A stretch of 64,000 nucleotides of DNA. Origin: Halodesulfovibrio sp. MK-HDV. GTDB lineage: Bacteria > Desulfobacterota > Desulfovibrionia > Desulfovibrionales > Desulfovibrionaceae. The stretch covers positions 1 to 64,000 of the forward strand of contig NZ_WYDS01000013.1 in assembly GCF_009914765.1 (NCBI RefSeq), in the 5' to 3' direction. Positions 5,105 to 15,132 of this stretch are shown here, one piece after another. The notes under the pieces were generated by a model, which did not search any database, was not told the origin of the DNA, and saw only the letters and a program-made list of their open reading frames with translations. Each line of letters opens with the position of its first letter. Position 1 is the stretch's first letter. The position numbers and the translations under genes are program-made.

Positions 5105-5275
5105 ATATGTACAAAGTATCAGGCAGGTCTTCCGGCTTGTTTCTTTTTCTCCGACCTTCCCAGTAAAACCAGTGGTACAATATGGAGAAAAATTGAATAA
5201 AACTTACGGCGGCGGGACCGCTCCCGATTTAAACGGGATTCCCTATTAGGCTCAATGAGCACCTGAAGTGAGGCA
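5105..5275 (-). promoter_or_regulatory. Cobalamin riboswitch
   Basis: On the minus strand the element has the full consensus order: GGTGCTC...GAGC, TAATAGGGAATCCCGT, then the GCGGTCCCGCCGCCGTAAG block, and finally the B12 box AGCCGGAAGACCTGCCTG. It lies about 180 bases upstream of cbiK. Downstream, CCTGCC near 5090 can pair with GGCAGG near 5055 to form an alternative hairpin. No strong U tract follows, so control could be translational or Rho-dependent. It predicts repression of the whole chelatase/transporter/cobI operon when adenosylcobalamin is plentiful. Confidence 0.95.
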
Positions 5276-5316
5276 CTGTACACGTAATAAAATTGACCGG
5301 TCAAGGAGTGATATTA

Positions 5317-6537: not shown

Positions 6538-6571
6538 AAAAAAAATCGCGCCACAGCAAGCTGTAGCGCGC
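6538..6571 (-). terminator. Strong intrinsic terminator or attenuator in the Gate-protein leader
   Basis: A GC-rich stem (CGCGC..ACAGC with GCTGT..GCGCG) is followed on the minus strand by eight T residues. It lies about 140 bases upstream of the Gate-protein start and about 335 bases downstream of the response-regulator stop. It either ends the upstream operon or acts as an attenuator for the Gate-protein gene. A weaker T tract on the other side makes it partly bidirectional. Confidence 0.7.
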
Positions 6572-6905
6572 ATTTTTTCAATCGACATGCGATTAAGGAA
6601 ACCGGGTAGTTTTCGCCGGTCCGAAAAAAGTAGCTTCCCCCAACTTTGTCCGACACATGAGGAAATTTCTTTTCAGGAGTAGACCATTCCTCCTGCACTG
6701 CGCTCTATATATCAAGAAGCGTGCCGTTTGTCATAACCTATTTATAAGAATGTAGAAAATTAGATATGGTTATAAATGATAAGGACATTCAACGGTAAGT
6801 GGTACAAAAAGGATTAGAGTGTCCGAGATTACGGATAAGTAGTCCGCAATCTCGGACGATTTGTGTTTAATGCTGATAGCGAGTCGCGCTTGTGCGAGAA
6901 AAAGA
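6572..6905. other. Non-coding interval with possible structured leader
   Basis: No gene is seen here. On the minus strand, positions 6660-6600 contain a short ACCGG/CCGGT hairpin and two TCGGAC blocks ahead of the terminator at 6571. Positions 6821-6857 hold an inverted repeat (GTCCGAGATT and AATCTCGGAC) just past the regulator gene. Confidence 0.4.
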
Positions 6906-8609
6906 CTACTTTTTTACGGAGTGCTTTTTCAGCAGGTCGTATAGGTAGGAGCGGGAAAGACCGGACAATTGGCAAGCTGTGGCTACTTTTCCATCTGCTA
7001 ACGCCATAAGGTTTTGTAGATATTGTGAGAATGCTTCATCTCTAAATTCAAAAAAAGGCGTGATGGAATCAGGAATTACAAGAGTGTCCGTGATCACGGA
7101 CTGAAGTGATGCCTTGTCCGTGTTCGCGGAATTTTGTGTATGCTGTCCCGTGTCAAACTGTGGCGATATGGGATTGGCAGCCATATCATCAACCTGTGCC
7201 AAAGATGGTGCAGGTCGCGTTGTATTATTGTGTTCGCTCACGGTGTCTGTTGAGGTCTTTATCCCTAACGTATTCGGAGAGTTATCAGGTCGCACAATAA
7301 TCGGAGGTGTCTGTTCCATCGGTGAAGTTGCAAGGCGAGCTGTGTATCCGTCCGTACTGTTTTCCGCTTCTGATAATGTACAGAATGCACCATTGTGTAA
7401 CGGAATATCTTTGTCTTCACGTTGCATTTTGTCAGCAGCGGCTCTGGCAATATTAATACGAATGTGATCCGGTAAGTGGCGGCTGAAAATTTTGGTAGTG
7501 TCTTTAGCGGCAAGTACTGCGCGTTCCAGAGTGTGTATCAGTTCGCGCACGTTCCCCGGCCATGAATATTCATAGGCCACATCGAGCAGGTCTGGAGAAA
7601 TACCTTTTGCTGGCATACCGTATTTGCCACAGAGCTGCTTAACATAGTGCTCAATGAGTCGTGGCAGGTCATCCGTTCTCTCGCGTAAAGGGGGCAATGC
7701 CATAACAACAGTTCGGATTCGGAATAGAAGGTCACTGCGGAATGTGCCGCGGGCAACCATTTCATCAAGGTTTCTGTTGGTAGCGCAGATGAGACGAAAG
7801 TCTGATGTTTTCTCAGTTCTTGCGCCTACTGGACGGAATCGATGCTCTTGCAATACCCGTAGGAAAAATTTCTGAATGGCAAGTGGCAGTTCGCCAACTT
7901 CATCAAGAAAAAGAGTACCGTTGTTGGATTGTGCTACTAGACCTTCCCTGTCTTTATCTGCACCGGTAAACGAACCTTTGCGGTGACCGAACAAGATTGA
8001 GCTTGCAAGAGTACGCGACATTGATGCGCAGTCTACCGCCACAAACGGGCCGGTAGCACGAAGGCTGTTTTCGTGGACAGCTCTTGCAAAAACTTCTTTA
8101 CCAACACCAGTTTCACCAAGCAGCAGGGCGGAAGCATCAGAAGATGCGGCTTCTGCAACAAGCGACAAGCATTTTTTAATACCGGCGCTGTCGCCGATGA
8201 TGCCGCTGCGCTTGAGCTTAACAACTCCGTTTTTAGCTGGGCGTTTACCTCTGTAGTCAATGGCGCGGATAAGTGGAAGCACCATGCGGTCAACGGAGCT
8301 TTGTTTTTCAACATAATCCCAGGCACCATTGCGGATGGCCTTTTCTGCACCGTCAGGTGTCGGGGTACCTGTCACTACAATAATTTCAGGATGCCCGCGC
8401 ATGGCATTCAGCTGCGCGATGGCAAGCAGGCCGTTACCGTCTGGAAGCTGTGTATTAAGATACACAATGTCCGTGTCATGCTTGCGACCCGAGGAAAAAG
8501 CCTCGTTAAGAGATTTAGCTTGTTTGCTGCGGTGTCCGAGACCTGTGACAATGGAGGCCAGAGTTTCGGAAAAAACTTGGTCGTTATCGATGATGAGAAC
8601 GCGAGCCAT
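6906..8609 (-). CDS. NtrC-family sigma-54 activator with substituted receiver phosphosite
   Basis: This 567-residue regulator has an N-terminal receiver (about 1-120), an AAA+ domain (about 138-370), a poorly conserved linker of about 130 residues and a C-terminal Fis-type helix-turn-helix ending SYLYDLLKKHSVKK. AAA+ features are GETGVGKE (165-172), the sigma-54 contact loop GSFTGA (212-217) and Walker B LFLDEVG. The receiver keeps acidic D8/D10 and a late lysine, but the phospho-accepting aspartate is Asn52 (VYLNTQLPDG, codon AAT). It should therefore still act on sigma-54 but not be switched by aspartyl phosphorylation. It starts three bases after the histidine-kinase gene stop, so the two form one operon. 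Confidence 0.9.
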   Translation of the reverse strand: MARVLIIDNDQVFSETLASIVTGLGHRSKQAKSLNEAFSSGRKHDTDIVYLNTQLPDGNGLLAIAQLNAMRGHPEIIVVTGTPTPDGAEKAIRNGAWDYVEKQSSVDRMVLPLIRAIDYRGKRPAKNGVVKLKRSGIIGDSAGIKKCLSLVAEAASSDASALLLGETGVGKEVFARAVHENSLRATGPFVAVDCASMSRTLASSILFGHRKGSFTGADKDREGLVAQSNNGTLFLDEVGELPLAIQKFFLRVLQEHRFRPVGARTEKTSDFRLICATNRNLDEMVARGTFRSDLLFRIRTVVMALPPLRERTDDLPRLIEHYVKQLCGKYGMPAKGISPDLLDVAYEYSWPGNVRELIHTLERAVLAAKDTTKIFSRHLPDHIRINIARAAADKMQREDKDIPLHNGAFCTLSEAENSTDGYTARLATSPMEQTPPIIVRPDNSPNTLGIKTSTDTVSEHNNTTRPAPSLAQVDDMAANPISPQFDTGQHTQNSANTDKASLQSVITDTLVIPDSITPFFEFRDEAFSQYLQNLMALADGKVATACQLSGLSRSYLYDLLKKHSVKK

Positions 8610-8612
8610 TGC

Positions 8613-10208
8613 CTACTCCTGATGGTCTTCTAGTGCGGACTGCACCAGCTGAAAAATGCTGTTTGTGTCGAGCGGCTTATGCGCAAGGGTTGGTACACCG
8701 GCTCCCATAGCAATTTCGCTTGTAATCGGGTCAGTCGGATCTGCACACAGAACAAGGCGGGTTTCCGGATGAACCCCGAGAAGGATTCGAGCAAGTTCCA
8801 GTCCGCTCATCTGCGGCATAGCAAATGTTAGGATAATCAGATCAAACGTATCAGGTGATTCAAGAAACAGGCGTAATGCTTCAACACTGCCGGAAACAGC
8901 TTCAATGCGGTATCCGAGAGGAACAAGCAGGCTGCGCCATTTTCGAATTTCCTGTTCCTCTGGAGATACGAGTAGAATACGCTCGCTACCTAATCTAGGT
9001 GACGGTGCAATTGGTCGCGACTGATCAATTTCCTGTTCATAAAATGGAATGTAGAGGCAGAATGTAGAACCAAGTCCTTCTTCAGAAAGTACGGTGATAC
9101 CCCCGTCGTGAGCGCGGGCAATGCCGTGTGCAACAGCAAGTCCGAGTCCTTGGGCGTCATCTGCCCCACGGGTCGTAAAAAATGGATCAAAAATGCGTGG
9201 AAGTAATTGTTCAGGAACCCCGACGCCAGAATCTTGAACCGTAACGCGAAGGTATTTTCCCGGGATGAGGTCGGCACGAAAAGCACCGGTGCGTTCGTCA
9301 AATTCTACTTCTGCCATGCGCACTGTAATTGTGCCGCTGTCAGTAATGGACAGCCGTGCATTTTCAAGCAGATTGTCGATGATCTGTCTTACCTGTCCGG
9401 CATCTGCCAGAACTGTTCGGTTGTTGGCGCTAATTTCTTCCAGAAGCAGAATATGCGGAGGAAGTATAGAGCGGAAGTCGCTGAGGGCTTCTGCCAAAAC
9501 CGGTTGCAGGGTAGTGGGGCGCATTTCCCCCTGACCTTGTCTGCTGATTGTCTGAAATTTTTTGATGAGAGCCATGGAGCTATTTGCAGCGCCGAGGATT
9601 GTATTCAAGTTGCTCTGTACCTGTTCGTTACCGGAGCTTTGCTTGAGGGCAGATTCTGTGCTGCTTACAATAGGCCGGATGAGCGTACTGAAGTCGGATG
9701 CGATGCCGCCTGCGAGAATGCCGATGGCTTCCATGCGTTGTGACTGGCGAATCTGTTCGTCAATAATCGCCTGTTCAGTCTCTGCATCCTTACGTTCAGT
9801 AATGTCTACAAGAGTTCCTTCGTAAAATTTAATGGAGCCTTTTACGTTATACACAGTGCGTGCGTTTATGAGTACCCACATGAGTAGGCCGTCACGTCTG
9901 CGAAATTGCATTTCGAAATTTTTGACTTCGCCTTTCTTCTTGAGCTCTGTCAGCAGATCTAAAAATCTCCCGGCATCAAGGGTGACGTTGTCCTGATCGA
10001 CAGGAAAATTACGAAGCATTTCTCCGGGGGATGGGTATCCAAAAATTTTAGCCAACGCTGGGTTAGCTAAAATAAAGCGCCCGTTACGAGCTTTGCGGAA
10101 CATTCCCTCGACTGAGTTGTCAAAAAAACTGCGCACGTCAGTTTCGTCCTTCTGGGAAGGGCGTACGTGAATGTGGCGGGAGGATTTGTTGGAATCAGAT
10201 GTAGACAT
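8613..10208 (-). CDS. PAS-HATPase-receiver hybrid histidine kinase lacking both phosphosites
   Basis: From the chosen ATG this 531-residue cytoplasmic protein has a PAS domain (about 25-140), a dimerisation segment (about 155-225), a HATPase_c domain and a C-terminal receiver (about 408-525). The ATP site looks intact: N box DNLLENAR (278-285), G1 DSGVGV, F box FDPFFTT and G2 GLGLAV. However, the H box that normally reads HDFNN is SDFST, putting Ser171 (codon TCC) in place of the phosphorylated His. The receiver reads LIILTFAMPQMSG, with Thr461 (codon ACA) in place of the phospho-accepting Asp, and its acidic pair is also lost. The frame is open to 10238; neither start has a clear Shine-Dalgarno. 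It likely signals by ATP-dependent conformation or binding to the cognate regulator. Confidence 0.9.
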   Translation of the reverse strand: MSTSDSNKSSRHIHVRPSQKDETDVRSFFDNSVEGMFRKARNGRFILANPALAKIFGYPSPGEMLRNFPVDQDNVTLDAGRFLDLLTELKKKGEVKNFEMQFRRRDGLLMWVLINARTVYNVKGSIKFYEGTLVDITERKDAETEQAIIDEQIRQSQRMEAIGILAGGIASDFSTLIRPIVSSTESALKQSSGNEQVQSNLNTILGAANSSMALIKKFQTISRQGQGEMRPTTLQPVLAEALSDFRSILPPHILLLEEISANNRTVLADAGQVRQIIDNLLENARLSITDSGTITVRMAEVEFDERTGAFRADLIPGKYLRVTVQDSGVGVPEQLLPRIFDPFFTTRGADDAQGLGLAVAHGIARAHDGGITVLSEEGLGSTFCLYIPFYEQEIDQSRPIAPSPRLGSERILLVSPEEQEIRKWRSLLVPLGYRIEAVSGSVEALRLFLESPDTFDLIILTFAMPQMSGLELARILLGVHPETRLVLCADPTDPITSEIAMGAGVPTLAHKPLDTNSIFQLVQSALEDHQE

Positions 10209-10261
10209 AGGCGCACAGTACGCACCCAGCAAGCACATGGCAATGGCGTTCTTGCGCGGTG

Positions 10262-14110: not shown

Positions 14111-15132
14111 TCAATTTTTTTCTTTTTTAAGCTTTTCGATAAGAGTGGTGCGTTTTACGCCTAAGATCTCAGCGGCTTGGTTTTTAATGCCATTCGCTTG
14201 CTGGAGGGCTTCCAATAGCAATTTTTCTTCGACAGCATCGAGGAATTCTTTAAGTGGAAGCTTTTGCTCGTTCAAATCCTGAATGCACGGCCATTGGAAT
14301 CCGGCCTGCTGTGGACGAACGGGTGCTGGTGAAATCGGTTCCGGAAGTTCAGCAATTACTCCTACTTGATCAAGGATCTTGCGAGGCAAGTCTGCCGGAG
14401 TAATGGAATTGGAGTCGCATAAAATAGTCATGCGTTCCATAAAGTTTTCCAACTCGCGGACGTTTCCGGGCCAAGTGTATGCTGCAAGGATTTTGCGAGT
14501 GTCAGGTGATAGTGTAAGTCGTGGACGCTGTTGTTTATCGCCAAATTTTTGTAAAAAATGGTCGCAAAGCAACAGTATATCACCGTCGCGCTCCCGTAGG
14601 GCGGGCAACTGAAGGGGAATAACGTTCAGGCGGTAATAAAGGTCTTCTCTAAAACGTCCGGCAGCAACTTCAACTTCTAAATCGCGGTTGGTTGCTGCTA
14701 CTACTCGTACGTCTACGCTTTTGATGGATGAACCGCCAACGCGTTCGATTTCTTTTTCTTGAAGTACGCGCAATATTTTGACCTGAAGTGTCAGATCCAT
14801 ATCGCCGATTTCATCAAGAAAAATCGTGCCGCCGTCCGCTAGTTCAAAGCGACCGGGACGAGAGCGAATAGCGTGAGTGAACGCGCCTTTTTCATGGCCG
14901 AAGAGTTCGGATTCAAGAAGGTCGCGTGGGATGCTCCGCAGTTAATGGGAACAAAGGGTGCACTGTCTCGGGTGCTGTTTGCATGTAGTGAGCGTACTAG
15001 TAATTCTTTACCAGTACCAGATTCACCAGTTACAAGTACGGTACTATCTGTTGGGGCTACTTTGGCAAGAACGCTGAAGACATCCTGCATGACAGATGAC
15101 TGTCCAATCGTTCCAAGTTTGTTCAGGCTCAT
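14111..15132 (-). pseudogene. Frameshifted sigma-54-dependent activator without receiver domain
   Basis: The N-terminal piece (15132 to about 14932) encodes GQSSVMQDVFSVLAKVAP and Walker A GESGTGKE. After INCGA the reading breaks: the expected continuation [21 protein letters not shown] is encoded in another frame. One missing T at about 14932 (GATGC where GATTGC would restore reading) explains it. The second part has Walker B, the sensor region and a Fis-type helix ending [19 protein letters not shown]. Rejoined, the protein is about 340 residues, an AAA+ plus DNA-binding activator. The sigma-54 contact loop is GAFTHA rather than GAFTGA. It could be a sequencing error or a true loss. The downstream TPR gene is its neighbour and possible target. 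Confidence 0.85.

Follow-up and report, generated by a model that had tools for sequence, protein, structure and literature searches.

The QseE/QseF and LuxU/LuxO systems signal by phosphotransfer to an intact receiver aspartate. Kinases and receivers that lack the residues for this chemistry occur at low frequency: about 0.9% of HisKA domains have no histidine and 2.0% of receivers have no aspartate (PMC12632262), with asparagine a common replacement in aspartate-less receivers (PMC4395418, PMC12632262). A 2025 review describes the switching of such pseudo-receivers on and off as a mystery (PMC12632262). In Desulfovibrio vulgaris Hildenborough, DVU0653 is a response-regulator sigma-54 activator (bEBP) whose listed target, in excerpts of PMC4641369, is a noncoding RNA (ncRNA) downstream of its own gene. 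According to excerpts of PMC3333781, a DAP-chip experiment with DVU0653, done blind and in a binding buffer containing acetyl phosphate, succeeded. According to the same excerpted reports, only a few Desulfovibrio species have orthologues of DVU0653 (PMC3333781, PMC4641369).

We analyzed a window of 64,000 nucleotides from Halodesulfovibrio sp. MK-HDV (contig NZ_WYDS01000013.1, positions 1 to 64,000), in which a kinase gene and a sigma-54 activator gene lie side by side (Table 1). A first-pass annotation had claimed that all three phosphorylation sites of this pair are substituted. Direct reading of the codons confirmed Ser171, Thr461, and Asn52 at the positions expected to hold His, Asp, and Asp. 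Numbering of the two kinase residues begins at the ATG at 10208, the position with which the starts of the more distant (group B) orthologues described below align; counted from the alternative ATG at 10238, they are S181 and T471.

Table 1. Positions within the window of the kinase and activator genes, their substituted phosphosites, and the adjoining sites, promoter, and RNA
Feature	Position	Strand	Remarks
Structured sRNA, about 171 nt	6538-6708	-	Invariant loop GGACAAAGT, terminator hairpin
Sigma-54-like -24/-12 promoter GGCACGCTTCTTGA	6712-6725	-	Position and core conserved in the genus and in g38
Enhancer-like palindrome	6820-6837		3' of activator
Enhancer-like palindrome	6841-6858		3' of activator
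Sigma-54 activator (bEBP)	6906-8609	-	Pseudo-receiver, AAA+ and lid, long variable linker, putative Fis-like HTH
Enhancer-like palindrome	7085-7102		In activator linker-coding DNA, 195 bp before stop
Enhancer-like palindrome	7115-7132		In activator linker-coding DNA, 225 bp before stop
Asn52 codon AAT	8454-8456	-	Replaces activator phospho-Asp; codon read directly
Kinase gene	8613-10208	-	PAS, DHp without His, intact HATPase_c, pseudo-receiver; ORF 8613-10238, alternative ATG at 10238
Thr461 codon ACA	8826-8828	-	Replaces kinase-receiver phospho-Asp; codon read directly
Ser171 codon TCC	9696-9698	-	Replaces kinase H-box His; codon read directly

Domain content points the same way. In a Pfam search, the kinase matched PAS, HATPase_c, and Response_reg, with no match to HisKA, while the activator matched Response_reg, Sigma54_activat (E = 2.7e-60), and AAA_lid. 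The C-terminal segment of the activator, GKVATACQLSGLSRSYLYDLLKK, resembles a Fis-like HTH by eye, without a Pfam HTH match. When the kinase was aligned with the solved CckA-like kinase 5idj, HDFNN paired with SDFST, which places the Ser on the catalytic His, and the ATP-site motifs were kept. Furthermore, the metal pockets of both receivers are damaged, reading VSPEE instead of the usual VDDxE in the kinase and IDND in the activator. The pair has neither the kinase His nor the regulator Asp of a canonical two-component system. Instead, the kinase is a pseudo-histidine kinase, with a DHp-CA core lacking a phosphorylatable His (Ser or Ala in 10/10 genomes), and the kinase receiver and the activator's own receiver are both pseudo-receivers, matching Response_reg without the acceptor Asp. 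The activator is otherwise a bEBP, with an AAA+ sigma-54 interaction domain, Walker motifs, and a G(A/S)FTGA loop. The first-pass annotation had also described the ATP-binding, AAA+, and sigma-54 loop parts as intact, which agrees with the Pfam domains and with main ATP-site motifs that are invariant in orthologues. AlphaFold models of the two proteins (mean pLDDT of 47 for the kinase and 44 for the activator) were too poor and were not used.

Two further observations concern sigma-54 activators in the region. The loop reads GSFTGA in the window activator alone and GAFTGA in the nine other orthologues; D. vulgaris DVU2394, for which a target operon is listed, has GSFTGA as well, according to excerpts of PMC4641369. 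Another sigma-54 activator, with AAA+, lid, and Fis HTH, is encoded at 14111-14800 (-), a few kilobases upstream from the two genes, and its position is the same in relatives (G120 and G079).

The adjacent pair is present in all ten Halodesulfovibrio genomes analyzed, and all three phosphosites are absent in every one. The genomes form two groups. Relative to the window, group A (six genomes) is 89-91% identical in the kinase and about 80-84% in the activator, and group B (four genomes) is 57-59% and 59-70% identical, respectively. In one group B genome (G021, L046), the linker between AAA+ and HTH has expanded: it runs to several hundred residues and contains repeats, for example SRISESSRISEPSR.

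The first-pass annotation overlooked what appears to be the output of the pair, namely enhancers, a sigma-54 promoter, and an sRNA. Clustered palindromes of the pattern TCCG-N6-CGGA occur in group A at fixed spots, at about -225, -195, +50, and +71 relative to the activator stop, and 21 of the resulting 24 positions are exact matches. The half-sites inside the gene are 97-100% conserved, compared with 60% for the surrounding linker DNA, and the residues that they encode vary, so the conservation reflects a DNA element and not a constraint on the protein. A stricter form of the motif has three exact matches genome-wide. Two are here, and the third falls within a transporter gene, with no promoter there. 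In genome G015, none of the four nearest activators has an adjoining palindrome cluster with a matching promoter. The promoter itself reads TGGCAC...TTGG/A in most relatives; its -12 element is thus TTGG or TTGA where the consensus is TTGC, a departure that counts against our main reading. Separately, near-identical promoters (TGGCACG[T/C]TTCTTGG) precede NrfH-like and multihaem cytochrome genes at two other loci (L180 in G000, contig C20; L185 in G142, contig C66). Those cytochrome genes are divergent from a sensor kinase gene, and in G000 an activator gene is nearby.

The RNA downstream of this promoter has a conserved fold. In an alignment built without reference to structure, 17 of 30 consensus pairs were compensated, a value reached in 0/500 shuffles, and sliding the partners abolished the signal. 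A covariance model recovered the sRNA in 10/10 genomes of the genus, adjoining the activator in nine; in the remaining genome, G151, it sits on a contig that starts with the activator end and runs on to CheV. No comparable score was found elsewhere among 199 family genomes, and Rfam gave no match above the gathering score at 6538-6708. The best subthreshold Rfam match was ncS54 (21.9 versus 43 bits), which covers the 3' half of the sRNA with the terminator. With upstream sites, a -24/-12 promoter, and a structured RNA and terminator beside the activator, the locus has the layout of a sigma-54 sRNA module. As judged from this arrangement, the sRNA is likely the activator's target and apparently the only one. 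Sequences complementary to the invariant loop (ACTTTGTCC) show no over-representation, and of two candidate target sites near start codons in G132, the one traced to orthologues was not conserved there; we therefore claim no target for the sRNA. Beyond the sRNA, the window holds a cobalamin riboswitch (Rfam RF00174, 97.8 bits) at 5105-5281 (-), upstream of genes for a CbiK-like cobaltochelatase, a FecCD/ATPase/binding-protein transporter, and a CobI-like protein.

Outside the genus, the kinase and the activator have different distributions. The best kinase matches in other genera are only about 35% identical, and those inspected carry the canonical HDFNN, with one HDFGN. The activator, meanwhile, has orthologues in the sister genus g38, with 55-61% identity over the aligned part. 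Seven of the eight g38 genomes match at a strict cutoff, and the eighth shows the promoter. The acceptor site is Ala in 6/6 aligned g38 activators (LAATLPDGNG). The activator is followed by palindromes about 33 bp apart, by the promoter TGGCACGCTTCTTGG, and by an RNA of several hairpins that contains GUUGGACAA. The Halodesulfovibrio covariance model does not score this RNA, a result that weighs against our main reading, although the g38 and Halodesulfovibrio RNAs are likely homologous. In g38 the genes run U32 peptidase, activator, CheV; the peptidase stands directly before the activator (about 150 bp apart in the locus measured), and no kinase gene separates them. A tblastn search with group A and group B kinases found no kinase orthologue at the g38 activator locus. 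Group B shows a g38-like frame into which the kinase is inserted; the U32 gene precedes the kinase in G021 and G151, and CheV lies beyond the sRNA.

A maximum-likelihood tree of the 16 phosphosite-less activators and 39 readable paralogues placed the 16 in one clade (support 100/99), while leaving the sister canonical paralogue unsettled. The canonical paralogues have Asp in 39/39 readable sequences. One other activator with a replaced receiver Asp, a D-to-G form in G065 of genus g36 (L154/L163), was set aside, having neither palindromes nor an sRNA promoter. At L163 (6508-7951), this NtrC-type activator reads LLGNNLPDG and stands in a different gene setting.

We propose that the locus encodes a pseudo-two-component system, in which a phosphorylation-independent activator is dedicated to one sRNA and, in Halodesulfovibrio, a pseudo-histidine kinase that binds ATP tunes it. 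We regard this reading as probable. The pseudo-receiver of the activator would be unable to take up phosphate, and without it the activator would bind the clustered palindromes that lie in the final stretch of its own gene and immediately beyond. Its intact AAA+ ATPase and sigma-54 loop would then open the promoter at 6712-6725, from which the one structured sRNA would be made. We infer the role of the kinase from its retention in one genus and its absence in the other. In g38 the activator, sites, promoter, and RNA are all kept although no kinase gene adjoins them, so activation cannot depend on the kinase throughout the family. With its constrained ATP-binding fold, it is most likely a noncatalytic partner that restrains or tunes the activator, and this role would run through its PAS and nucleotide-bound states, a form of gating by nucleotide or PAS ligand that the first-pass annotation had raised as a possibility. 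A more specific version is possible and is put forward tentatively: a phosphate-free switch in which the ATP or ligand state of the kinase is passed by contact to the pseudo-receiver, controlling one sRNA with intragenic enhancers.

The main rival, which we consider unlikely, holds that the activator is constitutive and set by its expression level, while the pseudo-kinase acts elsewhere, for example as a phosphatase or in heterodimers with paralogous kinases of the canonical type. The g38 arrangement, in which the other elements persist with no kinase gene alongside, favors this rival. Several canonical kinase/activator pairs in the genome are consistent with heterodimers, and a phosphatase role could draw on the D-x-x-T that follows the lost His in group A; D182 is invariant and T185 nearly so. 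However, the genes flanking the pair differ between groups A and B, and the kinase gene nevertheless adjoins the activator in 10/10 genomes, which argues against a kinase that works elsewhere.

It is also conceivable, if rather improbable, that another activator uses the palindromes and promoter and that the sRNA is not a target of the one in the window. The genomes contain many other sigma-54 activators, and binding of the sites by the window activator is a prediction. Yet the sites lie within and beside the activator's own gene, and activator, sites, and sRNA co-occur in both genera. The window also carries, downstream, CbiK, ABC, and membrane-protein genes, which we take to be the counterparts of DVU0646-0651. 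This shared neighborhood, together with the layout, makes it likely that DVU0653 is orthologous to the window activator. Both are response-regulator-type bEBPs, with GAFTGA in DVU0653 and GSFTGA in the window, and the ncRNA reported as the target of DVU0653, like the sRNA in the window, lies just downstream of the activator gene. The blind success of the DVU0653 DAP-chip, together with the ncRNA listed as its target in excerpts of PMC3333781 and PMC4641369, speaks against a different activator and lends indirect support, by analogy, to activator-dependent transcription of the sRNA. A missing phosphosite, a pseudo-kinase, RNA structure, and intragenic enhancers are not mentioned for DVU0653 in those excerpts.

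The pattern of replacement bears on a third alternative, that the pair is phosphorylated at other residues, whether the substituted Ser or Thr, another Asp, or Asn52 deamidated to Asp. Ser, Thr, and Asn are modifiable in principle, the receiver Lys is retained, and reversion of a receiver Asn to Asp has been discussed (PMC4395418). Nevertheless, we consider this alternative very improbable. The H-box position is Ser in the six group A genomes and Ala in the four of group B, and the kinase-receiver position is likewise Thr in six and Ala in four, so these are losses and not alternative acceptors. The conservation of S/T/N that the first-pass annotation had suggested checking thus held for Asn, present at the activator acceptor site in 10/10 genus orthologues, and failed for Ser and Thr, each kept in 6/10. 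Even the Asn gives way to Ala in g38, and the second metal-binding acid of the activator is N, H, A, G, or S across orthologues.

The remaining domains of the pair are under strong purifying selection. No kinase orthologue departs from N-box Asn293, from the G1, F, or G2 motifs, or from the adjoining D182, and the AAA+ motifs of the activator are likewise invariant. In group A, Nei-Gojobori dN/dS came to 0.029 over the kinase and 0.014 within its DHp region; in the activator, the AAA+ domain gave 0.015 and the linker 0.335. Since dS is saturated (near 2), these ratios are rough and good to an order of magnitude, while dN itself is small. The intended control, a neighboring Memo gene, comprised two sequences only. 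If independent, a random triple loss of phosphosites would have a probability of about 4e-6, yet the combination recurs in 10/10 genomes of the genus. His or Asp, which the first-pass annotation had named as the mark of recent strain-specific decay, occurs at none of the three sites in any of the ten genomes, and its view that the pair is phosphorylation independent and not decaying is well supported. Decay of an ordinary two-component system, whether confined to a strain or still under way, is suggested by the loss of all three phosphosites and by drift in residue identity at two of them but is ruled out by genus-wide fixation, purifying selection (dN/dS about 0.03 with small dN, a strong argument), intact ATPase motifs, and the lack of internal stops in the pair across the ten genomes.

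This lineage offers a natural experiment with two arms, a phosphosite-less activator with an adjacent pseudo-kinase in Halodesulfovibrio versus one without it in g38, both beside an apparent single readout in the form of one sRNA promoter. The locus also provides an RNA family that is supported by covariation and reaches the gathering score of no Rfam model, as well as enhancer-like sites within the linker-coding DNA of an activator. Its components, a pseudo-histidine kinase, a pseudo-receiver, and a sigma-54 sRNA module, are each known. It is the combination, together with genus-wide fixation and the contrast between kinase-plus and kinase-minus genera, that makes the question of pseudo-receiver switching testable.

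Each described system shares part of this arrangement. QseE/QseF-GlmY and LuxU/LuxO-Qrr resemble the window in pairing an NtrC-type sigma-54 activator with a nearby sRNA and upstream sites, and among solved full-length relatives, LuxO (5ep0) is one of the best. QseF-GlmY and LuxO-Qrr keep the phosphate switch, however, whereas the window pair is without any phosphosite. DivL of Caulobacter, like the window kinase, has a histidine-kinase fold with the phosphorylatable His replaced, and it works by protein binding (PMC4211667). DivL carries Tyr and reads the phosphorylated receiver DivK (PMC4211667), whereas the window kinase and its orthologues carry Ser or Ala, and the kinase has an added pseudo-receiver and an adjacent partner with an unphosphorylatable receiver. 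Finally, the aspartate-less receivers of FleQ, RitR, and ChxR, like that of the window activator, lack the acceptor Asp and have partly lost the metal pocket (PMC4395418, PMC12632262). In contrast to these characterized proteins, which are mostly orphans, the window activator has as its gene partner a pseudo-kinase lacking both its own His and its receiver Asp.
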